Of a stretch of 64,000 nucleotides of DNA, positions 7,350 to 54,227 are shown in pieces (positions within the stretch are counted from its first letter, which is position 1; each line of letters begins with the position of its first letter). The translations under genes and the position numbers were made by a program. Below the pieces are notes generated by a model. That model was given only the letters and a program-made list of their open reading frames with translations, was not told where the DNA came from and did no database searches. The DNA comes from Kiritimatiellaceae bacterium. Lineage in GTDB: Bacteria; Verrucomicrobiota; Kiritimatiellia; Kiritimatiellales; Tichowtungiaceae. The stretch covers positions 310,001 to 374,000 of the forward strand of contig JABFQY010000001.1 of the NCBI GenBank assembly GCA_013141415.1. Direction: 5' to 3'.

Positions 7350-7423
7350 AAAAACCTCCTGTTTGCAGAGAATGATGTAACCCCGATTCCGGTGTCGTTT
7401 GTACAGCGGCCGGATAGGGCGGG

Positions 7424-8269: not shown

Positions 8270-8418
8270 AGGTTCCGCCCCTTCATCTCAGAATCGGTGA
8301 ATCATTAATCCGCGGAGCTGGTTTCTTCAAGGTCGCAGAACATGTATTCCTGATGACCATCTATGAACCGGCTGTCGCCTCGGCTATGCCGAAGATGATT
8401 TATTGGAGCGGGGAGCTT

Positions 8419-8480: not shown

Positions 8481-8491
8481 ATTTTGGAAAA

Positions 8492-8887: not shown

Positions 8888-8933
8888 AGCAGATCCAAAT
8901 TTACTAGATTACGGGACTGACTTTTTTGCCTGA

Positions 8934-9584
8934 TTAAAATCCGTACATGGCAATATTGATAGCTAGTGAAATAAGCGTTACAAGCTCCATGGCAAAAACA
9001 AAAATAAAAACCGAACAGATTCTATAGCGGCCAATAAAAATCGGACCGCTATTTTTTGCATAGTACAAACTGGTAATAAGTATCCAGATGAGAATGAAGA
9101 TGCTCGTAAAAGCGATTCCTCCCGTTCTAACACCCTCGCTTTCTTCCAGTTTAATCCACAGAGGTGTAAATAACGGCGTCCACACTGCTGATGCGATGAT
9201 GATCCAAAAAATCTCTTTTCGTCGTGAATGGGGTTTTGAGGTTCTCCACGGTGGTTCCAGTTCGGCTTTTTTGATTTCGGCAACTAAATCTAGGTATTTA
9301 TCGCACACGGCTTTTTTGGGAGCGTACTTGCCGGTGAGTAGATTGAAAGACAAGATATCTAATGCTTGTTGAAAGGCCATTCTTCTTTTTTCAAGGCGCT
9401 TGTTCTCAAAATGAAAATCAACCGATCTCCACTTTTCAAGCCACGTTATTAGTGGCGTTGGGAATTCATCGTTTAAGCAAGAAGACTCTTCGTACAAATA
9501 CTGGATGTGCGCTGATTTAACAGGGAGTTCATCCAGTAAAGCTACAGTTAAGTCTATATCCCGCTGGCTGACGTAATTTTTCAT
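8934..9584 (-). CDS. Membrane protein of unknown function (AT-rich gene)
   Basis: A 216-residue protein not recognised. Residues 1-120 are soluble, charged and mostly helical. Three hydrophobic segments follow: FWIIIASAVWTPLF, AFTSIFILIWILITSLY and ICSVFIFVFAMELVTLISLA, so the N-terminal part probably lies in the cytoplasm. The gene starts 15 bases after alaS. Its base composition is clearly AT-richer than both neighbours, with AAA/AAT/ATA-rich codons, which suggests later acquisition. No catalytic motif is visible. Confidence 0.6.
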   Translation of the reverse strand: MKNYVSQRDIDLTVALLDELPVKSAHIQYLYEESSCLNDEFPTPLITWLEKWRSVDFHFENKRLEKRRMAFQQALDILSFNLLTGKYAPKKAVCDKYLDLVAEIKKAELEPPWRTSKPHSRRKEIFWIIIASAVWTPLFTPLWIKLEESEGVRTGGIAFTSIFILIWILITSLYYAKNSGPIFIGRYRICSVFIFVFAMELVTLISLAINIAMYGF

Positions 9585-9599
9585 TTGCGGTTTAAGCGA

Positions 9600-12335
9600 C
9601 TAGATCGATTTCCCTGCACTATCCAGAGCCTCCGCCAGTTTTTCGGGCAGTTTGCCGCCAGCCTGGGCGCGGTCGGGTTTGCCGCCGCCGCCGCCGCCGC
9701 ACTGCTTGGCAATCGCGCCGACGATTTTTCCGGCGTTCTTTCCGGCTTTGACTAAATCCGGTGTGACGGCGCAAACCAAAGCGACTTTACCGTCGGAAAC
9801 TCCGCCGAGGATGACGACGGCACTGGTGAGTTTCGGCTGAAGCGCGTCCATGACGGCGCTGAGCAATTCGGCGTCGGCTTCGCCCATGTTTTCGATGAGC
9901 AATCCGTCTTTGATTTTGCCGAGCAGTTCTTCCGCAATCGCCGGAGCCTTCGCTTGCATTTCGGCCTGTCTTTGCTTGGCGAGCTGTTTCTGGCGTTCCA
10001 CTTCTTTGGTGCGTTCCGCTTCAGCGGCGCCGGCGGCCTTTTGCTCTTCGATAAACTGTTTGGCGAATTTTCCGCAGACGGCTTCGATACGGCGGATACC
10101 GGCGGCGATGGCCGATTCGCGCATGACTTTGAAGAGACCGATGTCGCCGGTGTTGCGGACGTGACAGCCACCGCACAGTTCCATCGAGAAACCGTCGAAC
10201 TTACCTTTGTGTCCGCCCATCTGGAGAACGCGGACGGTGTCGCCGTATTTTTCGCCGAAGAACTGCTGGATGCTGGGTTGTTTCTGTACTTCGGTGAACG
10301 GAACTTCGGTCCAGTAAACCGGCTCGTTGGCTTTAATCCGGTCGTTGACCAGCTTTTCGATTTTGGCGATCTGTTCGTCGGAAATTTTTTCCGGCGAGTT
10401 GAAGTCGAAGCGCATCCGTTCCGGCGCGACGAGCGAGCCGCGCTGGCGGGATTCTTTACTGACGACGTTGTGCAGCGCCCAGTGGAAAAGGTGGGTGGCG
10501 GTGTGGTGGCGCTGAATATCGGCGCGGCGCTCCGCATCGACGTCAACGAGCACGCCTTCGCCCGGCTCCGGCGCGCGGCCGGAAACCAGCTTGGCGCGGT
10601 GGACGATCAGTTCGCCCTGTTTTTGCGTATCGAGAATCTGCAATTCGCCGATCAGATTTTCGTCGGCGATGAGCCGGATTCTACCGGTGTCGCCGGACTG
10701 TCCGCCCATTTCGGCGTAGCACGGAGTTTTGTCCAAGATGATGTTATATTCTGTAGCCGCGATCCCTGATCGCGGACCGAGGTCACGGACCTCGGCTACA
10801 GAAGAACCGCGATCAGGGATCGCGGCTACAACTGGGGAGATCGCTTCAACCAGCGCTTCGGCTTCGAGGTTATCGAAACCGATGAAGACGGTCGGGTTCA
10901 CTTCGAGACCTTCGCTCTCGACGGTGACGACGGTTTTCTTTTTGGCGTGGTCGGCGCGGGCGCGGTTGCGCTGTTCTTCCATCAGTTTTTCAAAACCGGG
11001 GACATCGACGGTCAGGCCGCGTTCGCGGGCCAGCAGTTCGGTGAGATCGAGCGGGAAACCGTAGGTGTCGTAAAGCCGGAAGGCTTCGTTGGCCGGGAAA
11101 ACTGTAGTCGCGATCCCTGATCGCGGACCGAGGTCGCGGACCTCGGCTACAGAAGAAAGGGTTGAAACAACCTGCTCGAACAGGTCGAGGCCGCGGTCGA
11201 GGGTGCGGTTGAAGGATTCTTCTTCGGCTTTGAGGGTTTTCTGAACGCGGTCCGCATTTTTGCGCAGTTCGGGGAAGGCGTCGCCGAAGCTGTCGGCGAC
11301 GGTGTCGGCGAGTTTGTAGAAGAAGGGCTCGCGGAAACCGAGGGCGCGACCGTAGCGGACGGCGCGGCGCAAGATGCGGCGCAGAACGTAGCCGCGGCCT
11401 TCGTTCGACGGCGCGATGCCGTCGGCGATGGAAAAGCTGAGACAGCGGATGTGGTCGGCGATAACGCGGAAGGCGATGTCGGTCGGATCGGTGAGCGAAC
11501 TGCCGTATTTTTTGCCGCTCATGTTTTCCAGAGCTTGGAAGATCGGTGTGAAGACATCGGTTTCATAGTTGGAGATGACGCCGGAGAAATCCTTGAAGCC
11601 TTTGGTGCACTGGATGACGGAACAGGCGCGCTCGAAGCCCATACCGGTGTCAACGTGTTTGGCCGGGAGCGGCGAGAAGGTTCCGTCGGGGTTGGCGTTA
11701 AACTGGATGAAGACGAGGTTCCATATTTCCATGCATTGCGCGGAACCGGCGTTGACCATCTTTGCGCCGCCGTCGCCTTTCGGGGAAAGGTCAACGTGCA
11801 GTTCGGAGCACGGGCCGCACGGGCCGGTATCGCCCATCATCCAGAAGTTGTCTTTGCGGTTGCCGGGGACGACGTGGTCGGCCGGGAGATATTTCAGCCA
11901 GAAGTTCTGCGCTTCGGTGTCGGCGGGCATTTTGTCGTCGCCGCCGAAGTAGGTGGCGTAGAGGCGCTCTTTCGGGAAGCCCCAGACTTTGGTGATCAGT
12001 TCCCACGCCCAGTCGATAGCTTCTTTTTTGAAGTAGTCGCCGAAGGACCAGTTGCCGAGCATTTCAAAAAAGGTGTGGTGGTAGGTGTCGAGGCCGACGT
12101 CGTCGAGGTCGTTATGCTTGCCACCGGCGCGGATGCACTTCTGGGTGTCGGCGGCGCGGCCCGGCGAGTAGGGGCAGTTCGACTGGCCGAGGAAGATCGG
12201 CACGAACTGGTTCATTCCGGCGTTGGTGAACAGCAAGTTCGGGGAGTCGGGCAGCAGGCTGCCGGATTTGACGAGGGTGTGCTGTTTCGATTGGAAGAAA
12301 TCGAGGAACGACTGGCGGATTTCGTTAGAAGTCAT
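9600..12335 (-). CDS. alaS: Alanine-tRNA ligase with two repeat-derived insertions
   Basis: Charges tRNA-Ala. The 911-residue protein has the class II catalytic domain (motif 1 region TNAGMNQFVPIFLG, then GDTGPCGPCSE), the tRNA-recognition helices, the editing domain (HTATHLFHWALH and CGGCHVRNTGDIG zinc-site motifs) and the glycine-rich C-Ala end (CGGGGGGKPDRAQAGG). Two palindromic repeats are inserted in frame. One (about residues 393-411) precedes AFRLYDTYGFPLDLT, and one (about 502-528) precedes the start of the editing domain at ILDKTPCYAEMGGQSGD. Both add the sequence SSVAEVRDLGPRSGIA. They fall in positions where family members have variable loops, so the enzyme is probably functional. 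It is divergent from the purF-like gene. Confidence 0.96.
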   Translation of the reverse strand: MTSNEIRQSFLDFFQSKQHTLVKSGSLLPDSPNLLFTNAGMNQFVPIFLGQSNCPYSPGRAADTQKCIRAGGKHNDLDDVGLDTYHHTFFEMLGNWSFGDYFKKEAIDWAWELITKVWGFPKERLYATYFGGDDKMPADTEAQNFWLKYLPADHVVPGNRKDNFWMMGDTGPCGPCSELHVDLSPKGDGGAKMVNAGSAQCMEIWNLVFIQFNANPDGTFSPLPAKHVDTGMGFERACSVIQCTKGFKDFSGVISNYETDVFTPIFQALENMSGKKYGSSLTDPTDIAFRVIADHIRCLSFSIADGIAPSNEGRGYVLRRILRRAVRYGRALGFREPFFYKLADTVADSFGDAFPELRKNADRVQKTLKAEEESFNRTLDRGLDLFEQVVSTLSSVAEVRDLGPRSGIATTVFPANEAFRLYDTYGFPLDLTELLARERGLTVDVPGFEKLMEEQRNRARADHAKKKTVVTVESEGLEVNPTVFIGFDNLEAEALVEAISPVVAAIPDRGSSVAEVRDLGPRSGIAATEYNIILDKTPCYAEMGGQSGDTGRIRLIADENLIGELQILDTQKQGELIVHRAKLVSGRAPEPGEGVLVDVDAERRADIQRHHTATHLFHWALHNVVSKESRQRGSLVAPERMRFDFNSPEKISDEQIAKIEKLVNDRIKANEPVYWTEVPFTEVQKQPSIQQFFGEKYGDTVRVLQMGGHKGKFDGFSMELCGGCHVRNTGDIGLFKVMRESAIAAGIRRIEAVCGKFAKQFIEEQKAAGAAEAERTKEVERQKQLAKQRQAEMQAKAPAIAEELLGKIKDGLLIENMGEADAELLSAVMDALQPKLTSAVVILGGVSDGKVALVCAVTPDLVKAGKNAGKIVGAIAKQCGGGGGGKPDRAQAGGKLPEKLAEALDSAGKSI
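10752..10830. repeat. In-frame palindromic repeat inside alaS, copy 1
   Basis: A 79-base element within the coding sequence. The outer arms are exact 24-base inverted repeats, 10752-10775 and 10807-10830, beginning TGTAGCCGCGATC and ending GATCGCGGCTACA. Between them sits a second hairpin, CCGAGGTC/GGACCTCGG, followed by CTACAGAAGAA. The first 55 bases match copy 2 at 11103-11157 with two differences. It is read without a stop in the alaS frame. Confidence 0.9.
11103..11157. repeat. In-frame palindromic repeat inside alaS, copy 2
   Basis: A 55-base element with hairpins CGCGATC/GATCGCG and CCGAGGTC/GACCTCGG, beginning TGTAG and ending CTACAGAAGAA. It matches 10752-10806 at 53 of 55 positions, in the same orientation and the same reading frame. 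It encodes SSVAEVRDLGPRSGIATT in the AlaS protein, between the tRNA-recognition helices and the conserved AFRLYDTYG motif. Confidence 0.9.
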
Positions 12336-12529
12336 GGGGCAACTCTCAGTTATAAGTTATCAGTGCTAAGCGGGCCGAAAATCTACCACGAACCGCCCCG
12401 ATTTCACGGATTTTTTTTGACTGTTTGGGGAAGGGCGCGGATGTTCGGTTAGATTTCCGTTTGACCGGGGCGGGGCCGGATGCAAGGATGTGCGCTCAAT
12501 CTTATCCGGAACCAAGGAGTGTATGGGAT

Positions 12530-14425
12530 ATGAGTGACTGGATTGGCCATGAATGCGGCATCGCCGCGATCCGGCTCTTGAAGCCGTTCGAATATTACGT
12601 CGAAAAGTACGGTTCACCCGCTTTCGCCATTAACCGCCTGTATCTGCTGATGGAAAAGCAGCATAACCGCGGGCAGGACGGTGCTGGCGCGGCGGTCATC
12701 AAGTTGGATGTCGAGCCGGGCAAGCCGTTTATCTTCCGTTCGCGTTCCGCAGACAAAGACCCGATTGCGCGGGTTCATCAGGAAATGCTGGCGGCGCTGG
12801 CGGAATCGCAGGCCGAAAATCCGGCGAACGCAAACGATCCGGTCTGGCTGAAGCGCAACGCGAAGTTTGCCGGCGAACTGCTGCTGGGCCATCTGCGTTA
12901 CGGCACACGCGGCCGCGGCGGCATTGATTTCTGTCATCCGTTCCTGCGGCCGAGCAACTGGCGCAGCCGCAATCTGGTGCTGGCGGGTAATTTTAATCTG
13001 ACCAACAACGATGAACTTTTTGACGCGCTGGTCGAGTTGGGTCAGCATCCGATCGATGAAACCGATACGGTGATGGTGCTGGAAAAGATCGGCCATTTCC
13101 TCGACGAAGAGAACGACCGTCTTTTTCGTGAGTTCCGCAAGGAAGGTGTGGAGCGCTCGGCGATTTCAGAAAAAATTTCCGATCATCTCGATTTGGTAAC
13201 CGTGCTGAAGCGGGCCGTGAAGAATTTTGACGGCGGCTACACGATGGCGGGTATTATCGGTAACGGCGATCTGTTTGTCATGCGCGACGCCTGCGGTATC
13301 CGCCCCGGATTTTTCTACCACGACGATGAGTTTGTGGTGGTGGCTTCTGAGCGACCGGCCATTCAAACGGCGTTTGATGTGCCGATTGACGCGGTTCAGG
13401 AAATCAAACCGGGTCATGCGCTGATTGTCCGTAGAAACGGCGAGGTGCTGCATGAACCGATTTCAGACGTGCAGGAAATCCGGCCGTGTTCCTTTGAGCG
13501 GATTTATTTTTCGCGCGGAACCGACCGCGACATTTACGGCGAGCGCAAACAGCTGGGCCGCCAGCTGACCGAGCCGGTTCTGAAGGCGGTGGACTATGAT
13601 CTCGATAACACCGTGTTCTCCTACATTCCGAACACGGCCGACGCCGCATTTTACGGTTTGATGGAAGGGGCGAAAGCCTACGTCGCCGACCGGGCAAAAT
13701 ATCACATTCTGCATGAACGGAACCTGACCGCCGAGCGAATCGCCGAGCTGGTGAATTATCAGCCGCGCATGGAAAAGATCATGACGAAGGACGCCAAGCT
13801 GCGCACCTTTATCACCGCTGACGCCGACCGGCGCGATCTGGTTTCGCTGGTGTATGACACGACCTACGGCGTGGTCAAAAAAACCGACACGCTGGTGATC
13901 CTCGACGATTCGATTGTGCGCGGCACGACGCTCCGCGAGAGTATCTTGCGGATTCTTGACCGGCTGAATCCGAAGAAAATCGTTATCGTTTCCTCGGCTC
14001 CGGAAATCCGCTATCCGGACTGCTACGGCATCGATATGTCGAAGCTGAAGGATTTCGTTGCGTTTCAGGCGGCCGTCGCGCTGGTGAAGGAAACCGGACG
14101 CGATACGATCCTGAAGAATATCTATGACGCCTGTAAAGCGAGCCTCGAACTGCCGCGCGATCAGGTTCAGAACGAAGTGCAGGCGCTTTACAAACTCTTC
14201 AAACCGAATGAAGTGGAGAAAAAAATCGCGGCGATTCTGCGACCGTCCGACCTCAAGGCTGAGTTTCAGGTGATCTACCAGAGCATCGAAGGATTGCACG
14301 CCGCCTGTCCGAAGCATAAGGGCGACTGGTATTTTACCGGCGACTATCCCACGCCCGGCGGCAATCGCGTCGTCAACCGCTCGTTTGTCAACTTCATGGA
14401 AAACAGCGACGCGAGGGCTTACTGA
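12530..14425 (+). CDS. purF: Amidophosphoribosyltransferase-type protein (PurF family)
   Basis: Catalyses the first step of purine synthesis, PRPP plus glutamine to phosphoribosylamine. The N-terminal glutaminase domain begins HECGIAAIR, where Cys9 would be the nucleophile after removal of an eight-residue propeptide. RYGTRGRGG and the [12 protein letters not shown] segment follow. The C-terminal phosphoribosyltransferase domain holds the PRPP motif [16 protein letters not shown] near residue 460. At 631 residues it is longer than E. coli PurF (505), with insertions in the glutaminase part and an extended C-terminus. AAGGAG at 12513-12518 supports the ATG at 12530 rather than an upstream one. 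Confidence 0.85.
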
Positions 14426-14427
14426 TA

Positions 14428-16335
<1,908 letters not shown>

Positions 16336-16347
16336 GTTTTAAAGTGT

Positions 16348-16476
16348 GGACGCGACGCCCTCGTCGCGTTTCTCATTCATTTACATGCGACGAGGGCGTC
16401 GCATCTACGTTGTGACCAGCGGCAAAGATGCCGCTTCCACATTCCGAGGCCGTCGGCCTCGGCTACAGAAGAAAAT
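16348..16476. repeat. Cluster of three hairpin repeats in the glgB-amtB gap
   Basis: Fills the first part of the 400-base gap between glgB and amtB. Unit 1 has exact 16-base inverted arms, 16352-16367 and 16387-16402 (GCGACGCCCTCGTCGC). Unit 2 is AGCGGCA/TGCCGCT at 16418-16435. Unit 3 is CCGAGGCC/GGCCTCGG at 16444-16462, followed by CTACAGAAGAA. That last string also ends both repeats inside alaS, so unit 3 is a relative of them. It may also act as a transcription stop after glgB. Confidence 0.7.
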
Positions 16477-16660
16477 ACAAAACTGGCGGCGGGACAAATT
16501 TCGGCGCGGACGGACCAGATTTGTCTGATTTGTTCACCAAAAAATACAGGCGTGTAACATTGGTCAGTTCTGGCGGCGCGACGGATCGTTGCAGAAAATA
16601 ATTCTAATCCATTCACCTCCAGCATCTAAGACCGCGGTGTTGCGGCGGCATTTTTGGCTG

Positions 16661-16677
16661 GGGCATAGATCGTGCTT
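16661..16677 (+). promoter_or_regulatory. Possible sigma-54 promoter of amtB-glnK
   Basis: GGGCATAGATCGTGCTT has the sigma-54 spacing: GG at 16662-16663 and GC at 16674-16675, ten bases apart, with CA after GG and T before and after GC. The match to TGGCACG-N4-TTGCW is partial. A start near 16687 would leave a leader of about 50 bases before amtB. Sigma-54 control of amtB-glnK is well known in other bacteria. Confidence 0.45.
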
Positions 16678-16735
16678 TTCTCGGGTCTTTACTTTTCACG
16701 GAAAAATTGACGCTGACAAACGGAGGAAAACAAAG

Positions 16736-18010
16736 ATGTGGTTTAGAAAAAGATGGAGTCTGTTCTTACTTACGGTTTTGTCGGTCGGTGCCGCGCAGGC
16801 GGCGGAAAGCGCACCGAGCGAACTGGCGCAATCTTCCAATACGCTGTTCATTCTGATCGGCGCAGTGATGATTCTGGCGATGCACGGCGGGTTCGCCTTC
16901 CTGGAGGTCGGTTCGGTGCGCCGGAAAAACCAGGTGAACGCGCTCAATAAGATCATCTGCGAGTGGGGCTTCTCGACCATCGTCTATTTCTTGATCGGCT
17001 ATCCGATTGCACGCGGCGTTTCCTTTCTGGTTCCGGTTGAAGTGTTGACGGTTGATCACGGTTTCGCCTATGTGAAGTTTTTCCTGCTGCTCGGTTTTGC
17101 GGCCTGCGTTCCGGCGATTATTTCCGGCGGCGTGGCGGAACGTTCCAAGTTCTGGACGAACTCGCTGGCGGGCGGAATTTTTGTCGGTCTGGTTTATCCG
17201 CTGGTCGAAGGTTCGCTGTGGGGTCAGTTCTCGAATACGCTGGCGGGAGCTACCGGCTGGCTGGCGACAACCTTCGGCGCGCCGTTCCATGATTATGCCG
17301 GTTCCGTGGTGGTACACGCCGTCGGCGGCTGGCTGGCACTCCCGGCGATTATGCTGCTCGGTGCGCGGCTGAAGCGCTACGAAACCAATTCGATCAAAGT
17401 CAGCAGTATTCCGTTCCTCGCGCTGGGAAGCTGGACGCTGATCGTCGGCTGGTTCGGCTTTAATGTGATGAGCGCCGGTTCGGTCGAAGCCATTTCCGGT
17501 CTGGTGGCAATCAATTCACTGATGGCGATGGTCGGCGGCACGATGGCGGCGATGTTTATTTCCAAGAACGACGCCGGTTTCGTGCATAACGGCGCACTGG
17601 CCGGACTGGTGGCGGTCTGCGCCGGTTCGGATATTTATCATCCGGTGAGTGCGCTGGTTGTCGGCGCGATGGCCGGCGCGATTTTTGTTTTCCTGTTCGA
17701 AACCGAAACGGTCAAGTGGAAGATCGACGACGTACTCGGCGTCTGGCCGCTGCACGGTGTCTGCGGCGCATGGGGCGGGATCGCCGCCGGTATTTTCGGC
17801 CAGAAGGCGCTCGGCGGAGTCGGTGGCGTTTCGTTCTTCTCTCAGCTGATTGTGACACTGGCGGTGATTCTATTCTGTCTGGCCGCCAGCACCATCGTGT
17901 ACGGTCTGATGAAAATTACCGTCGGCATCCGGCTGAATCCGCACGAAGAACTGATCGGCTCCGATCTCGCGGTACACCGGATTGAAGCACATCCTGAAGA
18001 CGCGCTCTAA
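16736..18010 (+). CDS. amtB: Ammonium transporter
   Basis: An inner-membrane channel for NH4+/NH3 uptake. The 424-residue product has a cleavable signal peptide (residues 1-21, ending AQAA), then eleven predicted membrane segments typical of AmtB. Conserved stretches include [15 protein letters not shown], the twin-His pore regions [18 protein letters not shown] and [19 protein letters not shown], and NAL-type loops. GGAGG at 16722-16726 sits 9 bases before the ATG, so a start 147 bases upstream is rejected. It lies 20 bases before a P-II gene, the classical amtB-glnK pair. Confidence 0.95.
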
Positions 18011-18030
18011 ACCTGAAAGGAACTTTTGCC

Positions 18031-18372
18031 ATGAAAATGATTATTGCCATTATCCAGCCTGAAAAACTCGAAGACGTTAAAGCGGCGCTGTTCAACGCTG
18101 AGGTGCATAAAATGACCGTCAGCCGCGTGCGCGGCTGCGGCCAGCAGATGGGGTTTACCGAGCACTACCGCGGGCAGGTTCGCTCCGTTAACCTGATCGA
18201 AAAGGTGCGGCTGGAAATCGCCGTGAATGACGATTTCGTCGATCTCACCATCAAGACGATTATCAAAGCGGCCAAGAGCGGTAAAATCGGCGACGGCAAA
18301 ATTTTTGTCATGCCGCTGGAACAGTGCATCCGCATCCGCACCGATGAAACCGGTTCGGAAGCGATTGGTTAA
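18031..18372 (+). CDS. glnK: P-II nitrogen regulatory protein lacking Tyr51
   Basis: P-II trimers bind ATP/ADP and 2-oxoglutarate and plug the AmtB channel. The 113-residue protein has the usual length and the signatures [11 protein letters not shown] and [11 protein letters not shown]-like [16 protein letters not shown]. In the T-loop Tyr46 is present (HYRG), but the position of the uridylylated Tyr51 of enterobacterial GlnB/GlnK is Arg (QVRSVN). Classical GlnD uridylylation is therefore not expected. It follows amtB by 20 bases, so direct control of that transporter is the likely role. A hairpin with a T-run follows the stop. Confidence 0.93.
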
Positions 18373-18377
18373 GATGA

Positions 18378-18473
18378 TTTGGAGTGCTCCGGCAAACGAA
18401 TAGTGCGACGGAGCTTTTTGCCGAAAGTTTGTGAAAAAGCGGCCTCGCGCTCCGCTTGCGTCCGCACTCCAAA
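18378..18473. repeat. TTTGGAGTGC inverted repeat element with terminator-like hairpin
   Basis: A 96-base element bounded by exact 10-base inverted ends, TTTGGAGTGC at 18378-18387 and GCACTCCAAA at 18464-18473. Inside, GCTCCG (18386-18391) pairs with CGGAGC (18409-18414) and is followed by TTTTT, so it probably also terminates amtB-glnK transcription. It occupies most of the gap before serC. Confidence 0.65.
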
Positions 18474-18556
18474 GAGAATTTCAACATTCCGTTTGCCCGC
18501 GCGGGGCTCGCCGTGCTAGATGTCTTCCGTCGTTTTTAACCGAAAGGAATGTCAAT

Positions 18557-19639
18557 ATGGCGCGTGCGTATAATTTCAGTGCGGGGCCGGCAATTCTGCC
18601 GACCGAAGTTCTTCTCGAAGCTCAACGGGATCTGCTGGATTTCAAAGGAACCGGCATGTCCATTATGGAGATGAGTCACCGCGGCAAGGAATACACCGCT
18701 GTGCACGAAGAGGCTGTCGCCAATCTTAAGACGCTGCTGAACGTTCCGGACAATTACAGCATTCTATTCATGACCGGCGGCGCAACCAGCCAGTTTTCTT
18801 TTATTCCGATGAATCTGCTCGGTGCCGGACAGAGCGCCGACTACATCAATGCCGGCTCGTGGGGCGCAGGAGCGGTCAAGGCCGCCAAGAAGCTCGGCAA
18901 AGTCAACGTGATTGCCGACACCTCGAAAGAAATTCCGACCCGTATGCCGGCCAACAGCGAACTGAAGTTCACTGATGGCGCCGCATACGTTCACATCACG
19001 TCCAACGAAACCATCGCCGGAACGCAGGTTAAGGAATTTCCGAAAACCAAAGCGCCGCTGATCGCCGATATGTCGTCCGACATTCTTTCGCGTCCGATCG
19101 ACGTTTCGCAGTTCGGCCTCATCTACGCCGGTGCGCAGAAAAACCTTGCTCCGGCGGGTGTGACGCTGGTCATCATCCGTAACGACCTGGCTGAACTTGC
19201 ACCGAAAGAAACGCTGCCGGAACTGTTTCAGTATCGCGCCTTCATCGAAGAAAACTCGCTCAAGAACACGCCGCCGACGTTCCCGATCTACATCATCATG
19301 CTGGTCACCCGCTGGCTGATCGCGCAGGGCGGACTCGAAGGAATGCAGAAGATCAACGACGCCAAAGCGGCCAAGCTCTATGCCGCGATTGACGCTTCAA
19401 GCTTCTACAAAGGCACTGCGGTGAAGGAATACCGTTCGCCGATGAACGTCACCTTCCGTCTGCCGACCGAAGAGCTGGAAGAAGCCTTTATCAAAGCGGC
19501 GTCCAAGCTGGGAATGACCAGCCTCAAAGGTCACCGTTCCGTCGGCGGCGTTCGCGCCTCGATCTACAATGCTTTCCCGACCGAAGGTGTCGATGCGCTG
19601 GTTGCCTTCATGAAGGATTTCGAAGCCAAGAATAGCTAA
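18557..19639 (+). CDS. serC: Phosphoserine aminotransferase
   Basis: Makes 3-phosphoserine from 3-phosphohydroxypyruvate and glutamate in serine synthesis, and also acts in pyridoxal phosphate synthesis. The 360-residue product has the N-terminal YNFSAGPAILP, MTGGATSQF and the PLP-lysine segment YAGAQKNLAPAGVTLVI. The C-terminus has KGHRSVGGVRASIYNA, typical of SerC. The ATG at 18557 follows AAAGGAAT; longer versions from 18431 would run through the repeat element. A rho-independent terminator follows. Confidence 0.95.
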   Translation: MARAYNFSAGPAILPTEVLLEAQRDLLDFKGTGMSIMEMSHRGKEYTAVHEEAVANLKTLLNVPDNYSILFMTGGATSQFSFIPMNLLGAGQSADYINAGSWGAGAVKAAKKLGKVNVIADTSKEIPTRMPANSELKFTDGAAYVHITSNETIAGTQVKEFPKTKAPLIADMSSDILSRPIDVSQFGLIYAGAQKNLAPAGVTLVIIRNDLAELAPKETLPELFQYRAFIEENSLKNTPPTFPIYIIMLVTRWLIAQGGLEGMQKINDAKAAKLYAAIDASSFYKGTAVKEYRSPMNVTFRLPTEELEEAFIKAASKLGMTSLKGHRSVGGVRASIYNAFPTEGVDALVAFMKDFEAKNS

Positions 19640-46621: not shown

Positions 46622-46656
46622 AAAAGGCTCCCTGCAAAAAGGGAGCCTTTTTATTT
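46622..46656 (+). terminator. Rho-independent terminator after glutamine synthetase
   Basis: AAAGGCTCCCT and AGGGAGCCTTT form an 11-base stem with loop GCAAAA, followed by TTATTTT. On the minus strand the A-run upstream gives a weaker T-run, so it may also stop the convergent receiver-protein operon. Confidence 0.9.
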
Positions 46657-46673: not shown

Positions 46674-47342
46674 TCAGCGGGTCAGAAAATGACTTTGACT
46701 GAAAATGTCGATTCCCAGATAACTTTTTACGAAATAGATAATCAGCATAATGCAAATGCCAACGCTCAGGGCGAGGACTCCTAGAGCCAGCATGAGCGCC
46801 AGAATGTTGCCAAAGAGCGGCGCGCCGTAGCGGAAGGATTGCTGAGAGATCACTCGTAGCCGGTAAAGCCAGTAAGGTGCGCTGTAGACCTGCTTGTCAA
46901 TTTCCTTCTGGTTGAGCGCCAGTTGCTGCTGTAAGGATTCGATATCGTATTGGCGTACGGCCGCATGGACGGCCTGCTGAATGTCGGCAGGCGAGGCAGG
47001 CTTCTTTATAAAACGGAAAATCTGGCCCTCGTTAATGGCTTTAATAAACAGATCAGTTTCAAGCGCTGCGCTGAAGAGTACGCTTTTGATCTGGGCATTC
47101 CGCTGTTTTAGTGTGACCAGAAAGTCGAGGCCGCTTTGGCCCGGCAGGATATGGTCGCACAGGATGGCTTTGATATTCCGTCCGCGCAGAACCTCAACGG
47201 CTTCTTCGGCCGATCCGGCCTGATAGATGACGTATTCTTTTTGAAGAACCCGGTAGAGAACTTTCAGCATGAACGCGTCGTCGTCAATAACCAGAACGGC
47301 GTCCTTTTCCTTCGCGGCAAACTCTTGAGTTTTTTCAGTCAC
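46674..47342 (-). CDS. Membrane-tethered response-regulator receiver protein
   Basis: A 222-residue protein. Residues 14-130 form a CheY-like receiver with the acidic pocket Asp20-22, phosphoacceptor Asp63 (LCDHILPGQSG), Ser91 and Lys113 (FIKKP). A helical linker follows (residues 130-170). A membrane helix (residues 178-204, FGNILALMLALGVLALSVGICIMLIIY) and a short tail come last. There is no DNA-binding output domain, and receivers followed by a membrane anchor are uncommon. The GTG at 47342 is spaced well from AAGGAG; a TTG nine bases earlier is too close. It is last in a five-gene overlapping operon with glycan-type enzymes. Confidence 0.8.
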   Translation of the reverse strand: MTEKTQEFAAKEKDAVLVIDDDAFMLKVLYRVLQKEYVIYQAGSAEEAVEVLRGRNIKAILCDHILPGQSGLDFLVTLKQRNAQIKSVLFSAALETDLFIKAINEGQIFRFIKKPASPADIQQAVHAAVRQYDIESLQQQLALNQKEIDKQVYSAPYWLYRLRVISQQSFRYGAPLFGNILALMLALGVLALSVGICIMLIIYFVKSYLGIDIFSQSHFLTR

Positions 47343-48489
47343 TAAAGCCAAGCTCCTTGTGCATTAGATGATAGATTTGGCGGATGTTTGTCAAGTCTGC
47401 CGGCAGTTCACGGTTGGAACAAATAGAGGCGGCGGAATCCGCATCCTGAGGGTCGTAGCCGTGCAGCCCTTTGATTTGCTTGACGCCCATGAAGCCGGGA
47501 ACGATTTGCAGACCTGAATGAATCAGAAAAATAAGATCGCCGTACATGCCGTTCCCAAACCATACGCCTTCGCGTTTCAGCTCGTCATCGGTCAGAACCC
47601 GGCCCTTCGGGTGACGGCTCAATAGAGCTGTAATCGCCTGTCGCGCGCCGTCATTGAGAAACCAGAACCGCGCCATCGTAGAGTCATAGAATGCGACATA
47701 ATCTTTATTCCAGCGCAGGCCGGTTTTTTTGATGTCGGCAATCAAGTCGTATCCTGCGGTGACATCGTGCATGCCGTGGTCGGTAAAAACATACCACGCC
47801 ACTTCGTCATAATTTTTTTCCGCTGTCGCAATCAGTTGACGTATCTGCAGATCGTACCTGTGAATCAGTTCTGTAACTTTCGGGTCGTGTGTGCCGACAG
47901 CGTGCATCAGGGCATCCAGCTTTCCGAGGGAGCAGTAGGCAAACTCAATCCGTTGTGTTTCTATGTCGGTCGTGAGGCGTGCCAGCTTGGTTTCATCGCT
48001 TACCGCACTGTCGTGAACGTAGTGCGGAATGCCGCGCCGCACCAGTTCATCAAAAATGGTTTCGCCGCGCAGCAATCCGCCCGGCTCCCAGATACGTCTC
48101 TTTTCGGCGTAGTTGAACAGCGGCAGAATTTTGAACGGTACGCCGTAGAGCTGGAAATAACCGGTGAACCCCAGAGTCTTCTTAATAATTTTACTTAGAT
48201 AGTGCCGAACCCGTCCGCGCCGGAAAATGATGTCTGGCAAAACCGCCAGCACGTTTGTCCACTTGAACGGCGAGCCTTTCGGGTCATAGTAGAATGACGA
48301 CCACATCAAATGTTCACTGGGGAGCTTGCCGGAAATAATGGACGGGTCGCACGCCGAAGAATAGCCCAGAATGGTATCCAGTTTTTTGTGGTCACGGATC
48401 AACCCGTGCAGGAAGAACGGGTGCCGGAGAAAAATTTCCCGGCCGAACGCATCAATAAAAATGAAAAGACTCAGCTTGGGCTTTTTCAT
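47335..48489 (-). CDS. Alkaline-phosphatase-superfamily enzyme
   Basis: A 384-residue protein without signal peptide. The metal-site pattern of the alkaline phosphatase/nucleotide pyrophosphatase superfamily is readable: Asp13 (FIDAFG), nucleophile candidate Ser44 or Ser45 (LGYSSACDPS), Asp192 and His196 (KLDALMHAVG), Asp237-His238 (FTDHGMHD) and His343 (GLHGYDP). It probably hydrolyses or transfers a phosphate ester or phosphodiester. The cytosolic location fits a nucleotide-sugar or lipid-linked substrate rather than phosphate scavenging. It overlaps the nucleotidyltransferase-like gene by 4 bases and the receiver gene by 8. Confidence 0.8.
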   Translation of the reverse strand: MKKPKLSLFIFIDAFGREIFLRHPFFLHGLIRDHKKLDTILGYSSACDPSIISGKLPSEHLMWSSFYYDPKGSPFKWTNVLAVLPDIIFRRGRVRHYLSKIIKKTLGFTGYFQLYGVPFKILPLFNYAEKRRIWEPGGLLRGETIFDELVRRGIPHYVHDSAVSDETKLARLTTDIETQRIEFAYCSLGKLDALMHAVGTHDPKVTELIHRYDLQIRQLIATAEKNYDEVAWYVFTDHGMHDVTAGYDLIADIKKTGLRWNKDYVAFYDSTMARFWFLNDGARQAITALLSRHPKGRVLTDDELKREGVWFGNGMYGDLIFLIHSGLQIVPGFMGVKQIKGLHGYDPQDADSAASICSNRELPADLTNIRQIYHLMHKELGFSD

Positions 48490-49595
48490 GAGAATCTCTG
48501 CTGAAGGGCATAAAATTCACTGCACAGTTTTTCAAATTCGGTTTCATAGGAACAAAGCAGGTGGCCGATGACATCGCGATCCGCATGTTTCGTCAGCAGT
48601 AACGGCAGCACCGCATAAAGCCGCAGGCGGGGGTGAGCAAATCCATAGCGGAGAGCGCCCGGCCCGAAGGTGCGCAGGTTGTGTATTGTGTTTTTCACCG
48701 GCGACCCTTCTTTTCCGAGGTGCGGAAAATAGTGAGCATATTTTTCCAGTGTCTGGAACTTCCGGTTAAGCCGGCGCCGCTCATACCAGAGAAAGAACTG
48801 CTCGTAACGTTGCACGGTTTCTGCAAAGCGCAAATGGACATTTCCGTTGTCCAGAGCCTGGAAATCGACCCGTTCCTTGAAATCAATCGCTTGGCTGTAG
48901 GCGCTCATGAAGGTTCGCGCATCGTCCAGCCCGGAAAGATCGATTTCCGGCAGACGGTGCCGTTTAACAACATACGAGGGGTCGTAAGCGCCGCGCATCA
49001 GCAGCGCGCAGTCGCCGAAGGCAAGATCGGCTTTGAAAAGGAACTTCAAAAAGCGCTCTTTTTCATCGTGTGTCAGTATTTCCGGCTGGGCGAGCCGCCG
49101 TTTGATATCGAGCAGCAGTTTACCCCGGTTCATCAGCAGTCGCGTACCTTCGGAAAGCGGAATGGCGTTGCGCGGATAAGCCGGCATGGCGCTGAGAATT
49201 TTTTGATTTCCGCGGATCACCCGGTGGCCGTATTTCATTTCGTAGTTGAGCAGGGAAAATTCGCACTTCGGCAGTGCGGAGGAAAGATAAGGGTAGAGGT
49301 CAACCGGCAGGCCGATCTCTCCGGAAAGTTCTTTCTCCAGTTTTTTGAGAGCCCTCTTCAGTAGCGGATCCAGTGTATCGGTCACCACAATCAAGTCGTA
49401 GTCGTTGAAGGGGAGCTCTTGTCCGCTGGGGCCGATCATCGGCGATCCTTCGCCGCGTCCATAGCCGCCGAGCAGGATCAGCGCCATCCAATGTCTTGAA
49501 AAAGGCGATGCGTACAACGCGTCGGCGATACGTTTCATGTCTGCGTCAATGCGGGCATCGAATGCCGGAGACCCTTTGACGGAATATTTACCCAC
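48486..49595 (-). CDS. Nucleotidyltransferase-fold protein
   Basis: A 369-residue protein with a GTG start. The N-terminal part has the pol-beta-type nucleotidyltransferase pattern: GGYGRGEG (residues 43-50), the Asp pair in NDYDLIVV (Asp65, Asp67) and a third Asp in LPVDLYPY (Asp99). Residues 110-369 are mostly helical and Arg-rich with no recognised domain. The substrate could be a small molecule, sugar phosphate or protein. It overlaps the GT2 gene by 8 bases and the phosphatase-like gene by 4. It is not a clear GlnE, GlnD or antibiotic nucleotidyltransferase. Confidence 0.68.
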   Translation of the reverse strand: MGKYSVKGSPAFDARIDADMKRIADALYASPFSRHWMALILLGGYGRGEGSPMIGPSGQELPFNDYDLIVVTDTLDPLLKRALKKLEKELSGEIGLPVDLYPYLSSALPKCEFSLLNYEMKYGHRVIRGNQKILSAMPAYPRNAIPLSEGTRLLMNRGKLLLDIKRRLAQPEILTHDEKERFLKFLFKADLAFGDCALLMRGAYDPSYVVKRHRLPEIDLSGLDDARTFMSAYSQAIDFKERVDFQALDNGNVHLRFAETVQRYEQFFLWYERRRLNRKFQTLEKYAHYFPHLGKEGSPVKNTIHNLRTFGPGALRYGFAHPRLRLYAVLPLLLTKHADRDVIGHLLCSYETEFEKLCSEFYALQQRFS

Positions 49596-50427
49596 GGGAG
49601 CCTTCTTTCAGTCCGCGGTAGAGGGCCGTATGGATGACGGCGCGATAGGCGATGTTATAGGGAATTGTATCGGGCCGTCCTTTGCGCAGGGCATAAAACA
49701 AATCGCGCGCCCACTCCTTGCAGAGTTCCATGGTTTGGGAAAACAGATTCGTCCGGCGGCCATAGGTGTGCGCGAACCGCAGTCCGTGCCGGAATTTTTT
49801 TCGGTAAAGCTCCTTGAGCGTGTAATTGTGGGAATGCTCCACAACGGAATCGGCTGCCAGCTTGAATCGTGCGCCCTGTGCGCGGCATTCATGTGCCCAT
49901 GCGACATCTTCAGCGTAACCCTTTTCCGGGAATTTGATTTTTTGCCAGAGATCGCGCCGGAACGCGCAGGTGACGGCGGAAAAAAAGTCGGCATTGTCAC
50001 CCTTGATGTTTTTCGGATCATAGGCGCGCAGGTAATCGTAGGTGATGATGAAGCGGGCGTCGGAGCGCGTGACCTGTGCGCTCATCACGGCGTCGGCTTC
50101 GCCGTCAAACAGCGGGCGGAGCAATTTTTCGAGCGCGTCTTCGCTTTGGAAAATCGCATCGGCATTCTGAAAAACAATAAACTCCTGCGTGGCACGCGCC
50201 GACATATCATTCAGCACCTTACCCGGAAGGTATGATTCCGGCGGAATACAGATCAGGTGCTCCGGATTAATCGTGTTGCGCAAAATATCGAGCGACCCGT
50301 CCGTCGAGCCGGAATCTACCGCGAACAGCTCGATGTCTTTGAACGTTTGACGCCTCAGGCTGGCGATGGCCTCCGGAAGATAGGGCATCTCGTTCTTTGA
50401 GCGCATGATGACGGCGACGCGACTCAT
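49588..50427 (-). CDS. Glycosyltransferase family 2 protein
   Basis: A 279-residue GT-A enzyme. It starts VAVIMRSKNEMPYLPEAIASLRRQTF, followed by VDSGSTDGSLDILR and the metal-site region FQNADAIFQSEDALEK; AVTCAFRRDLW and GYAEDVAWAHECRAQG follow (ED catalytic motif). It resembles rhamnosyl- or similar transferases of surface polysaccharides. It overlaps GT4 upstream by 4 bases and the nucleotidyltransferase-like gene by 8. Product glycan unknown. Confidence 0.85.
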   Translation of the reverse strand: MSRVAVIMRSKNEMPYLPEAIASLRRQTFKDIELFAVDSGSTDGSLDILRNTINPEHLICIPPESYLPGKVLNDMSARATQEFIVFQNADAIFQSEDALEKLLRPLFDGEADAVMSAQVTRSDARFIITYDYLRAYDPKNIKGDNADFFSAVTCAFRRDLWQKIKFPEKGYAEDVAWAHECRAQGARFKLAADSVVEHSHNYTLKELYRKKFRHGLRFAHTYGRRTNLFSQTMELCKEWARDLFYALRKGRPDTIPYNIAYRAVIHTALYRGLKEGSRG

Positions 50428-51560
50428 AATCCGGCGACCCTTTCGTAGATGTCGAGAGTCTGCCTTGCCGTGCGGTTCCAGTCAAACTCCGCCGCATACT
50501 CAACGCCTTGGCGGCGTTTCGCATAGCTCCAGCCTTCGGAAAGCGTTTTTTCCAGACACTGAAAAATTTCCTCCGTGCTGTGCGGATTAAACTTTGGCAC
50601 CACATTGCCGGCAATTTCGCGCATGGAGGACGTGTTGGAACAGATCACCGGCGCTCCGCAAGCCAGCGCTTCAATGATCGGGAAGCCGAAGCCTTCGAAA
50701 AGCGACGGAAACGCCATCAGGTCGCAGGCGTTGTAGAAAAGCGGCATATCCTCCAACGGCACGAAGCCGGGGAAAAGAATATCGTCGTGTACCGGGCTGG
50801 TGGCGGCGCGTGCGCGAATCACGTCCGCGCCGTTCCAGTCGGCTCCCGGCAGGACCAGTTTATGCGGGCTGTCGGTTGCCGTCTTAAACTGTTCGAAGGC
50901 CTCGATCAGCCGGACGTGATTTTTCGCCGGATGCTCCAGCCGGGAAACATAAACGATGAAGGGCTTGTCGAGTTTGTACTTTTCGGCGAGTTGTGCGCGG
51001 GCGGATGATTTTTCCGCAGGGCAGAAAATCTGATGGTTGATGCCGGAGTAGAGCACGGTGATTTTTTCCGGCGCAACGCCGACGCGTTCGACGATGTCCT
51101 TCTTGGAATAATGGCTGACGGTGATGATGTGGTCGGCATTGCGAATCTGCGATGGAACAATGCGGCGGTTATAGAACATTCGCGCGGCATCATATTTGGC
51201 GTCCATCGAAAGCGTGGCGACATCGTGAACGGTCGCGACAATCGGACATTCCTTTACCAGCGGAATCCGCCGGTAGCTTGGCACATGCAGCAGGTCAAAC
51301 TTTCTGAGTTTTGCCAGAACCGGAAGAACGGTGTTGTGCCACGCAATGTTGACCACCGGATGGGAAATAAAATCCGAATAGAGCCGCTTCTGGAAATTCG
51401 GCGACGTCAGCTTAATCAGCTCGGCTTCGCGCATCGGCATCATGATGTCGTACCGGCTGACCGGATCCTCCTGCTGGAGGTGCCGGAGCAGTTCGCGGAT
51501 GTAGGAAGCCACGCCGGAGCGCCCGCCCTGCATTACAAAAGCTGAAAATCCAATCTTCAT
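50424..51560 (-). CDS. Glycosyltransferase family 4 protein
   Basis: A 378-residue GT-B enzyme, probably the first gene of the operon. The N-terminal domain has the glycine-loop region MQGGRSGVASYIRELLRHL. The C-terminal domain has ITVLYSGINHQIF, FIVYVSRLEHPAKNH and the donor-binding EX7E motif EGFGFPIIEALACGAPVICS. It is likely to act at the cytoplasmic face on a lipid-linked acceptor. With the following GT2 it could build a short saccharide. Confidence 0.87.
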   Translation of the reverse strand: MKIGFSAFVMQGGRSGVASYIRELLRHLQQEDPVSRYDIMMPMREAELIKLTSPNFQKRLYSDFISHPVVNIAWHNTVLPVLAKLRKFDLLHVPSYRRIPLVKECPIVATVHDVATLSMDAKYDAARMFYNRRIVPSQIRNADHIITVSHYSKKDIVERVGVAPEKITVLYSGINHQIFCPAEKSSARAQLAEKYKLDKPFIVYVSRLEHPAKNHVRLIEAFEQFKTATDSPHKLVLPGADWNGADVIRARAATSPVHDDILFPGFVPLEDMPLFYNACDLMAFPSLFEGFGFPIIEALACGAPVICSNTSSMREIAGNVVPKFNPHSTEEIFQCLEKTLSEGWSYAKRRQGVEYAAEFDWNRTARQTLDIYERVAGL

Positions 51561-51668
51561 TGCCGCCGGATTCTAACCACACCGCCGCGCATTTAAAATA
51601 AACTTCCCCCGCAAAGTTGGTAACAGCCTTGGCAGGGAATCGGCTGCCGGTGTACAGTGCCGTCCGTG

Positions 51669-52793
51669 ATGAACGCGAAGACCATTTTTAGAATTCTGGC
51701 GGCCATGGTTCTCTGCGGAATCGCGCGCGGCGCGGAGCCGGTACAGGTCGATTTCTTTTTCGAGCCGGGCTGTCATGAGTGCGAGCGGATCGAAACGGAG
51801 CTTCTTCCGGAGATCGGAAAGAGGTTTCCCGGAACCTGCTCAATTCGGCGTCATGACATCGGCGTCGAGACAAACTTCCTGCATCTGCTCCAGCTGGAGC
51901 ATGAGCTGGGCTATACAAGTCCGGATCGGGCTTACCTGATCGTCAACCGGCAGGTTGTTTTCGGCCCATCGCCGTCGCACGAGGATTTTTTCGCCGCAGT
52001 CTCCAATCTGCTGACCCAAAGCACCGTCAGTCCGGCGACGCAAACGGTCGCGCCGGATCTGGCAGAGAAATGGTACAGCGGATTTACGTTTTCCGCGGTG
52101 ATCGCCGCCGGACTGATTGACGGAATCAATCCGTGCGCGATTTCAACGCTGGTCTTTTTCATGAGCCTGCTGGCAGTTGCTAAAGTCCGGAACCGCCAGC
52201 TCATCCTGCTGGGAATCTCATTCTGTACCGCTTCATTTCTGACCTATCTGGGTATCGGCTTCGGACTGTTCCGCATCATACATCTGTTCTCCGGCTTTAC
52301 CGCACTGCGCAGCGCGGTGGAATTGGGAATGGTCACGGCCTTGCTGGTTCTCGCCGTCCTGTCGTTCCGCGACGCCATTCGCTTCCGGAAAACCGGCCGC
52401 GCCGCCGATGTGACGCTTCAGCTTTCCGCCGGCATGAAGAAGCGCATTCACGACGTCATGCGCCGCGGACTTGGCAGTACCAGCATCATCTGGGGCGGAT
52501 TGCTGATCGGTTGCGCGGTGACGGTACTGGAAAGTGTCTGCACCGGGCAGGTCTATGTCCCGACGCTGGTTCTGATTCTGAAAGACAGCGCCTTCTCCGA
52601 ATTCCGGGCGTGGATGCTTCTGCTGCTTTATAACGCGCTGTTTATTCTGCCGCTGGTTGTCGTATTCGCCGCGGTTTACTTCGGCCTGCGGACGGAAACG
52701 CTGCTCGCCTGGAGCCGCCGGAACGTAGTCGTCTCCAAGCTTCTCCTCGGACTTTTCTTCGTCCTGATGGCGCTGTTTATCTTCTGCGGGTGA
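51669..52793 (+). CDS. CcdA/DsbD-like membrane protein with N-terminal CxxC domain
   Basis: A 374-residue predicted thiol-electron carrier. After a signal sequence (residues 1-18) comes a thioredoxin-like segment with CHEC near residue 32 (FFFEPGCHECERIETELLPEI). The membrane part (from about residue 140) has the CcdA-type motif DGINPCAISTLVFFMSLLA and a second conserved Cys in ESVCTGQVYVPTL, within six to eight helices. It may pass electrons from the cytoplasm to the attached thiol domain. The order thioredoxin-like domain first, channel second is the reverse of classical DsbD gamma. It is divergent from the GT operon. Confidence 0.75.
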   Translation: MNAKTIFRILAAMVLCGIARGAEPVQVDFFFEPGCHECERIETELLPEIGKRFPGTCSIRRHDIGVETNFLHLLQLEHELGYTSPDRAYLIVNRQVVFGPSPSHEDFFAAVSNLLTQSTVSPATQTVAPDLAEKWYSGFTFSAVIAAGLIDGINPCAISTLVFFMSLLAVAKVRNRQLILLGISFCTASFLTYLGIGFGLFRIIHLFSGFTALRSAVELGMVTALLVLAVLSFRDAIRFRKTGRAADVTLQLSAGMKKRIHDVMRRGLGSTSIIWGGLLIGCAVTVLESVCTGQVYVPTLVLILKDSAFSEFRAWMLLLLYNALFILPLVVVFAAVYFGLRTETLLAWSRRNVVVSKLLLGLFFVLMALFIFCG

Positions 52794-52859: not shown

Positions 52860-54227
52860 TCAGATGTGCTTCCGCGCGGCTTTGCCAATGGAATAGACGT
52901 TGAAGCCGACCTTGTGAAGCGCCTTGTGATCGAGGTGATTGCGTCCGTCGAACAGAAACGCGGGCTGAACCATGCCGTCGAAAATCTTCTTATAGTCGAG
53001 CGTTTTGTATTCCTTCCACTCGGTCAGCAGAGCAATGGCATGCGCGCCTTTGGCCGCCTTGTACGGATCAGCCTCGAACTTGACGCGGTCGATCACATCG
53101 GCCAGATCAACCTTGGCGTGTTCCATGGCCTGCGGGTCGGTGATCACCACTTCGGCATTTTCCGCCAGCAGTTCGCGGGCGATCAGGATGGCCGGGCTTT
53201 CGCGCGTATCACCGGTATCGGCCTTAAACGCGAAACCGAACAGCGCGATCCGCTTGCCGGCAATCGTGTTGAACATTTCCTTGAGCATCCGGGCGACAAA
53301 GCGGCGTTCCTGATATTCGTTCATCTTCACAACCTGCCGCCAGTATTCGGCCACTTCGTGCAGTCCGTAGCTTTCGCAGAGGTAAACGAGGTTCAAGATG
53401 TCTTTCTTAAAGCACGATCCGCCGAAACCGACGCTGGCTTTCAGGAACTTCGGGCCGATCCGGCTGTCCATGCCGATGGCGCGCGCCACTTCGCCGACGT
53501 CGGCGTCGGTTGCTTCGCACAGCGCGGAAATGCTGTTGATTGAACTGACGCGCTGGGCGAGGAACGCATTGGCCGTCAGCTTGGAAAGCTCGCTCGACCA
53601 GAGATTGGTCGTCAGGATTTTTTCCGGCGGAACCCATGCGGCGTAAACATCTGCCAACGCCTTAATCGCCTTCTTGCCTTTAGATGTCGGATGTCCGCCG
53701 ATTAAAATACGGTCGGGGTTTTCGAGGTCGGCGATGGCGGTGCCTTCGGCGAGAAACTCCGGATTGGAGAGAACGTCGAAATGCACGCCGTTCTTACCGC
53801 TGTTCAGAATACGTTCCATCGCGGCGGCGGTACGGACGGGCAGGGTGCTCTTTTCGACCACGATTTTATCGGAAGTCGAAACTTCCAGAATCTGGCGGGC
53901 GCACTTTTCCCAGTACTGGAGGTCGGCGGCGCAGCCCGCGCCGTGACCGAACATTTTGGTCGGCGTGTTCACGCTCACGAAAATAATATCGGCATCCTTG
54001 ATGCCCTTCACCACGTTGGTGGAGAAAAAGAGATTCTTGCCGCGGGCGGCCTTAACCACCTCGTCGAGACCCGGCTCGTAGATCGGCAATGTGTCGGAGT
54101 TCCAGGCGTCGATGCGCTTCTGGTTGATGTCCACCACGGTCACTTTGACCTTCGGATTCTTCTTGGCGATCATCGCCATGGTTGGCCCGCCGACATAACC
54201 CGCACCGATGCAAAGAATTTTAACCAT
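52860..54227 (-). CDS. ugd: UDP-glucose 6-dehydrogenase
   Basis: Oxidises UDP-glucose to UDP-glucuronate for surface polysaccharides. The 455-residue protein has the NAD-binding start [18 protein letters not shown], the STLPVRTA and [12 protein letters not shown] segments, [18 protein letters not shown], and the catalytic cysteine in [10 protein letters not shown]. The length and the N-terminus resemble the animal/plant-type enzyme rather than the shorter E. coli form. AGGAG precedes the ATG on the minus strand. Upstream lies a repeat-filled gap. Confidence 0.95.

Follow-up and report, generated by a model that had tools for sequence, protein, structure and literature searches.

A co-inherited nucleotidyltransferase and NPP-type phosphodiesterase in a five-gene operon of a Kiritimatiellaceae bacterium, possibly a detached part of a Wzx/Wzy-type exopolysaccharide pathway

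The operon described here lies in a 64,000-nucleotide stretch of DNA (the window) from a Kiritimatiellaceae bacterium (GCA_013141415.1, contig JABFQY010000001.1, positions 310,001 to 374,000 of the forward strand). The source genome measures 2.2 Mb in 7 contigs and is 95.5% complete, and the nearest named relatives of the window are Kiritimatiellales and metagenome assemblies labelled 'Verrucomicrobia bacterium'. Open reading frame (ORF) calls place five minus-strand genes at positions 46674-51560 of the window, each overlapping the next. The first encodes a GT4-type glycosyltransferase (GT4; 50424..51560; PF00534, E 2.5e-28) and is followed by genes for a GT2-type glycosyltransferase (GT2; 49588..50427; PF00535, E 2.2e-21), a 369-residue Pol-beta-type nucleotidyltransferase with a helical C-terminal domain (NT; 48486..49595; GTG start), an NPP-type phosphodiesterase of the alkaline phosphatase superfamily (PDE; 47335..48489; PF01663) and a receiver domain with one C-terminal transmembrane helix (RR; 46674..47351; PF00072, E 8e-18). 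A terminator-like hairpin 3' of RR on the same strand, a consensus match only, would close the operon (46622..46651; 12-pair stem and T-rich tail). GT4, GT2, PDE and RR score above their Pfam cut-offs and NT scores below. The overlaps are 4 bases for GT4/GT2, 8 for GT2/NT and 4 for NT/PDE. The overlap of PDE and RR is 17 bases with the TTG start chosen by the ORF tool and 8 with the GTG in frame at 47342, which is closely preceded by AAGGAG and is the likely start of RR. An earlier reading of the letters without database searches (the sequence-only reading) had described five overlapping minus-strand genes, and this layout was confirmed. Among 240 genomes drawn from the phylum, the operon order is kept in all four that belong to the same genus, with GT4 in the same position in each, and therefore the arrangement is not by chance.

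The best Pfam match of NT is PF01909, at 15.9 bits against a gathering cut-off of 21, and this family is matched at E 0.1 or better by 14 of 27 NT family members. NT has no NCBIfam match at E 1 or better, and neither the single sequence nor a profile matched the sequences of solved structures. Relatives of NT are present in 350 genome stretches. The protein carries the motifs GGYGRGEG and NDYD, and in 42 of 47 aligned sequences each of the carboxylate positions D65, D67 and D99 is occupied by D or E. An AlphaFold2 model was built from an alignment of the window with its relatives' loci (predicted local distance difference test, pLDDT, 95.6). The model has a nucleotidyltransferase (NTase) fold, in keeping with the Pol-beta superfamily, as are the GG/GS loop, the DxD motif and the third carboxylate. 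Foldseek matched the model to ANT and AadA chains at E 3.6e-4 to ~1e-3. With VIA-align, AadA/ANT(3'')(9) gave Z 12.7 over 219-225 residues at 3.5-4.0 A, and lower values were obtained for DrrA (10.6) and for the N-terminal (9.6) and C-terminal (8.9) domains of GlnE; HalB is also among the structural matches (Z 10.6), with one entry that lists a complex with oligodeoxyadenylate.

AadA/ANT(3'')(9) and AAD(9) likewise join an NTase domain to a helical C-terminal domain, but NT is 12-14% identical to them, has ~90 extra C-terminal residues, lacks their NCBIfam assignment and lies in exopolysaccharide (EPS) clusters. The GGYGRGE loop of NT is identical to that of Escherichia coli GlnD, the PII uridylyltransferase/uridylyl-removing enzyme, and is followed by a DxD motif; hhalign aligns NT with GlnD over 33 columns at E 8.2e-6. 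The logic of transfer and removal is also reminiscent of GlnD, although removal here would be carried out by a separate NPP-type protein. GlnD carries HD and ACT domains, for neither of which was a Pfam match found in the 369 residues of NT. The LicD family PF04991 is not among the Pfam matches of NT at E 1 or better, and the active-site loop of LicD/FKRP presumably differs from that of NT. In a Xanthomonadales metagenome assembly, GT2 and NT are joined in one 677-residue ORF (locus L118, 8505-10538); this is the sole fused ORF among those scanned, and no NT-PDE fusion was found among them.

PDE matches PF01663 at 52.7 bits (cut-off 23; E 6.4e-14). Its metal ligands D13, D192, H196, D237, H238 and H343 and the serines S44 and S45 are invariant in all 39 aligned sequences. 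The protein has no N-terminal hydrophobic segment, as its first residues form a core strand (3-12), and it thus lacks the secreted or membrane-anchored character of NPP phosphodiesterases. The predicted model (pLDDT 94.1) has a full-length NPP fold (Foldseek E 2.6e-18) that aligns with ENPP folds at Z ~28 over ~321 residues in VIA-align. The profile of PDE gives weak sequence matches to ENPP5, ENPP6 and ENPP7, and S44 aligns onto a threonine of ENPP7 that we take to be the nucleophile, just as we assume the usual roles for the aligned metal ligands. The top structural matches include ENPP6 and ENPP7 with phosphocholine, and further matches include an NPP3 entry with UDPGlcNAc and ENPP1, one entry of which is titled mouse cGAMP hydrolase. 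PDE therefore resembles the NPP/ENPP enzymes (Xac NPP, ENPP1-7) in its full-length fold, aligned metal ligands and nucleophile position, but differs in having no signal peptide and in an invariant serine where ENPP7 has threonine. PDE represents an unusual cytoplasmic branch of the NPP family. The motifs, metal set, lack of a signal peptide and RR membrane helix given in the sequence-only reading all proved correct, and the structure predictions it called for returned an NTase fold for NT and an NPP fold for PDE.

The pairing of NT and PDE is genuine, and the two are inherited together. In the 240 genomes, NT was found in 59 by single sequence and in 60 by profile, and PDE in 62. With the NT profile, both genes are present in 58 genomes, NT only in 2 (G061 and G202), PDE only in 4 (G044, G150, G153 and G174, the best of these at E 6e-30) and neither in 176 (Fisher 3.6e-48); this test was not corrected for relatedness, and because the genomes are related the p value overstates their independence. 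Counted by genus with the single-sequence NT search, 30 genera have both, 2 NT only, 3 PDE only and 97 neither. None of the 240 genomes has a PDE with E below 1e-40 without NT. The absence of PDE from G061 may be an assembly gap because its NT contig ends inside Wza. In a set that partly repeats these genomes, 53 genomes bearing 53 of 79 named NT loci, PDE is present in 47 (25/28 and 22/25). Pairwise distances of NT and PDE are correlated over 41 pairs (r 0.93), over the 24 taken as linked (0.90) and over the 17 unlinked (0.97), with a permutation p of 0.001 each, and shared species history contributes to this correlation.

The pair occurs in EPS clusters of Verrucomicrobiota and neighbours, Gammaproteobacteria, Cloacimonadota and others; Lentisphaera marina and Pontiella are among the bearers in culture. 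The genes that flank 96 distinct NT loci were clustered and recurrent families named by Pfam and NCBIfam; the recurrent neighbours are WecG/TagA-like, Bac_transf, HexNTP, GT4, Wza, Wzz, Wzy, Wzx, STAS, RR-SpoIIE and uridine-kinase-family genes. A later profile-based count gave 105 distinct NT loci, of which 89 have 1.5 kb or more, and 57 have 8 kb or more, on each side. Of the 89, 43 have GT2 as the gene immediately upstream of NT, 37 have PDE as the gene immediately downstream, and 22 have both. At least three of nine core EPS families lie within 10.5 kb in 35 of the 57 large loci, and all nine in 4; because the profiles were built from the same loci, this count names a recurrence and is not an independent test. 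From the side of PDE, 38 of 83 distinct flanked genes lie next to NT, 12 have Wzx as the very next gene, and 25 of the 31 PDE genes without NT within 9 kb have at least two EPS-family genes near. In the window genome itself, HexNTP, STAS, Bac_transf and RR-SpoIIE genes lie in that order on another contig, C3, at ~555.8-560.0 kb, and Wzz and two Wza genes at ~617.7-622.6 kb. The relatives' loci resemble Wzx/Wzy EPS clusters in their Bac_transf, WecG-like, Wzx, Wzy, Wzz, Wza and GT4 genes, but they differ from ordinary clusters of this kind by the addition of NT-PDE, HexNTP, STAS, RR-SpoIIE and sometimes a uridine-kinase-family gene.

The proposal that the five genes form a free-standing pathway of their own does not hold, as many relatives carry the pair, or one member of it, inside a Wzx/Wzy EPS cluster, and a novel stand-alone pathway was rejected on that account. 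The neighbourhood survey that the sequence-only reading suggested bore it out in part: all five genes are in order throughout the sampled genus and NT and PDE are widely paired, whereas two relatives discussed below keep only NT. As to a match with a known pathway, the EPS context was found in relatives, and a teichoic or teichuronic acid pathway was rejected since the NCBIfam cut-offs were missed (TuaC 55.8/550, TuaG 27.2/400 and TuaD 344.6/700 bits). A defence or phage system was also rejected (no PADLOC match except a weak receiver match; no PHROGs match for NT, PDE or GT2), and no PDE relative was confirmed on viral contigs. A mobile plasmid module was rejected too, as neither PDE nor NT had a plasmid match.

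Two further families recur beside NT. A uridine-kinase-family gene is present in 16 of the 105 distinct NT loci and lies within 60 bases of NT in 7. In these seven (L129, L130, L134, L136, L140, L145 and L146, from Lentisphaerae-type, Cloacimonadota and Delongbacteria assemblies) the gene immediately precedes NT, and in three of them the two overlap by 4 bases. The NF004018 uridine kinase cut-off was passed by eight of nine scanned copies, two of the nine also passing TIGR00235, and by the L110 copy in a separate scan. HexNTP joins a sugar-nucleotidyltransferase-like N-terminus to a left-handed beta-helix (for example L124 8579-9976 and L157 10819-12255). Its loop is degenerate in most members, and the N-termini mostly lack GxGTR, which we take to be the usual signature of such a domain; for this lack a cytidylyltransferase role for HexNTP was rejected. 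The order at L130 is HexNTP, kinase, NT, PDE, and in Cloacimonadota (for example at L124 and L130) HexNTP or the uridine-kinase-family gene takes the place of GT2 upstream of NT.

Our tentative interpretation is that the operon is a detached part of a Wzx/Wzy-type EPS pathway with a two-enzyme module, NT and PDE, that writes and processes a nucleotidyl group. Within the cytoplasm, GT4 and GT2 would elongate a lipid-linked repeat unit, with a uronic-acid precursor supplied by the nearby NDP-sugar (UDP-glucose-type) dehydrogenase UGD (52860..54227, minus strand; TIGR03026, 332.9 bits, cut-off 189.8). NT would move a nucleotidyl group, perhaps uridine monophosphate (UMP) from uridine triphosphate, onto a hydroxyl of the glycan intermediate, and PDE would hydrolyse the resulting phosphodiester before Wzx flips the repeat unit. 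UMP is the likely group because of the uridine-kinase-family neighbour and the GlnD-like loop. Hydrolysis may leave the phosphate on the sugar and release the nucleoside, which the uridine-kinase-family enzyme present in some phyla would recycle, or it may restore the free hydroxyl and so erase the mark. That PDE acts on the product of NT fits with the finding that no strong PDE occurs without NT in the 240 genomes while NT sometimes occurs without PDE. The sequence-only reading had proposed a cytoplasmic route that attaches and trims a phospho- or nucleotidyl-linked glycan. This proposal fits the folds, catalytic residues and context of a conserved cytoplasmic pair tied to glycan synthesis. 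The analysis establishes the order and families of the genes, the folds as predicted, the conservation of the catalytic residues, the joint inheritance of NT and PDE and their EPS setting; we infer the substrate and a glycan rather than protein target, as we do the nucleotide, the processing or erasing role of PDE and the order relative to Wzx. A more specific version is unlikely: NT would uridylylate a hydroxyl of the lipid-linked EPS unit, PDE would cut away the nucleoside but not the phosphate, and the uridine would be salvaged by a uridine kinase dedicated to it, the three enzymes jointly doing the work of a sugar kinase for a membrane-bound glycan.

Several results weigh against this interpretation. 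The main result against an obligate NT-PDE pair comes from two other near relatives with NT identities of 74% (L076) and 58% (L079), in whose loci NT is kept intact between UGD and glnN (10001-11110 and 5779-6891, respectively) without the GT4, GT2, PDE and RR of the locus. Whole-genome searches of both returned neither PDE nor a close GT2, and HexNTP was not matched over its full length; NT is therefore able to persist by itself. PDE is likewise missing from G202/L134 and three further NT genomes by a profile search, which was run without a positive control on all seven PDE-negative NT genomes and found none. None of the nine core EPS families lies within 10.5 kb in 18 of the 57 large NT loci, the window included. 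In the regions of the window genome that were read, Wzx was not found, Wzy gave only a weak match (4e-11) and no uridine-kinase-family gene was seen, and the latter is absent from most NT loci. The GlnD-like loop points equally to a protein target, and the AadA-like folds are not cleanly separated from the protein-modifying folds (GlnE Z 9.6, DrrA Z 10.6). Finally, the GT2-NT fusion at L118 is metagenome-derived and could be an assembly indel.

Of the other explanations, the one that survives best, although we consider it improbable, is a regulatory switch in which NT attaches a nucleotidyl group to a protein, with the adjacent GT2 as the likeliest target, and PDE takes it off again, so that polymer synthesis is turned on and off. 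The exact GlnD loop and the matches to the GlnE and DrrA folds (Z 9-10) argue for such a switch, as do the nearby regulators RR, STAS and RR-SpoIIE and the position of GT2, which is the commonest upstream neighbour of NT (43/89) and is fused to it once. However, the best structural match of NT is to small-molecule (aminoglycoside) adenylyltransferases, the Pfam scan found no HD or ACT domain, two genomes keep NT without a close GT2, and at loci of the L124 and L130 type GT2 is not the gene upstream.

Somewhat less probable is a mere co-location, in which PDE is a nucleotide-sugar pyrophosphatase or cleans up lipid intermediates, NT has a minor role of its own and the two are simply carried in EPS clusters and share no substrate. 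The NPP3 entry with UDPGlcNAc indicates that NPP folds can bind nucleotide sugars, and the persistence of NT in L076 and L079 is consistent with separate roles. The co-occurrence of 58/60 and the distances that are correlated even where the genes are unlinked argue against it, as the cluster gene HexNTP tracks NT less closely and is strongly matched in NT-free genomes (G012, G115, G090, G186 and G035).

We also doubt, slightly more strongly, a phospho-substituent pathway of the Lic/FKRP type, in which a small alcohol is first activated by a kinase and a nucleotidyltransferase, after which NT passes its phosphate ester to the glycan for trimming by PDE. LicD/FKRP-type phosphotransferases have an NTase fold and act in glycan synthesis, and LicD proteins use CDP conjugates in capsule synthesis (PMC11666461). 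A kinase gene and the NTP_transferase-like HexNTP gene adjoin NT in several phyla, and phosphocholine is the ligand of the ENPP6 and ENPP7 entries that rank high for PDE. NT, however, has no LicD match and keeps a canonical GG...DxD loop of the nucleotidyl type, and the name of the kinase family is uridine kinase. Since most HexNTP N-termini lack GxGTR, the activating step is open to doubt. The weakest alternative, a signalling pair in which NT makes and PDE degrades a nucleotide messenger that controls polymer synthesis, is very improbable: HalB is among the NT matches and PDE resembles ENPP1 (the cGAMP hydrolase entry), but the named neighbours include no recurrent family that is an obvious receptor or effector, neither protein has a defence-library match and AadA-type matches score higher than HalB.

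The preferred reading, a nucleotidyl-processing module within EPS assembly, concerns a pathway type that is known. Pontiella produces a sulfated glycosaminoglycan-like EPS (PMC7356697), and the words phosphodiesterase and nucleotidyltransferase are absent from the main text of that report. No description of the NT-PDE module or its predicted chemistry was found among the open-licence PMC papers searched. The NT family, whose window member falls below the Pfam cut-off, and the cytoplasmic NPP branch behave as one evolutionary unit in EPS clusters, and their pairing within clusters for surface sugar polymers across several phyla points to a step of polymer assembly that has not been described. 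Should NT write, and PDE process, a nucleotidyl mark, be it on a glycan or on a glycosyltransferase, this would be an undescribed form of control or chemistry in EPS assembly.

Control of the operon by a phosphorylated membrane protein, as the sequence-only reading proposed, is weakly supported. RR has a single strong hydrophobic stretch (residues 187-205), and the Pfam scan that matched PF00072 found no output domain, the transmembrane helix standing in its place. Only in the genus of the window does a receiver with a membrane helix have a fixed place downstream of PDE, and this position alone points to control by RR. Related receivers are encoded on the opposite strand at L086 and L092, and in other lineages STAS and RR-SpoIIE genes lie near NT/PDE loci. 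In Gammaproteobacteria (L209, L212, L213 and L219) STAS and RR-SpoIIE recur beside PDE, which suggests a partner-switch regulator of the EPS pathway.

Upstream of the operon, UGD directly adjoins GT4 on the same strand in L034, L035 and L078. In the window, L073 and L074, but not in L078, a further gene lies between UGD and GT4. In the window it is a divergent neighbour (51657-52793, plus strand) whose product has no Pfam match at E 1 or better and no NCBIfam match; it has an N-terminal CxxC thioredoxin-like stretch and membrane segments and presumably resembles DsbD. In the Kiritimatiellales-type genomes of L039 (~12269-18692) and L081 (~5966-9790), GT2 and NT are separated by a block on the opposite strand that includes an ABC transporter and a GNAT-type gene.

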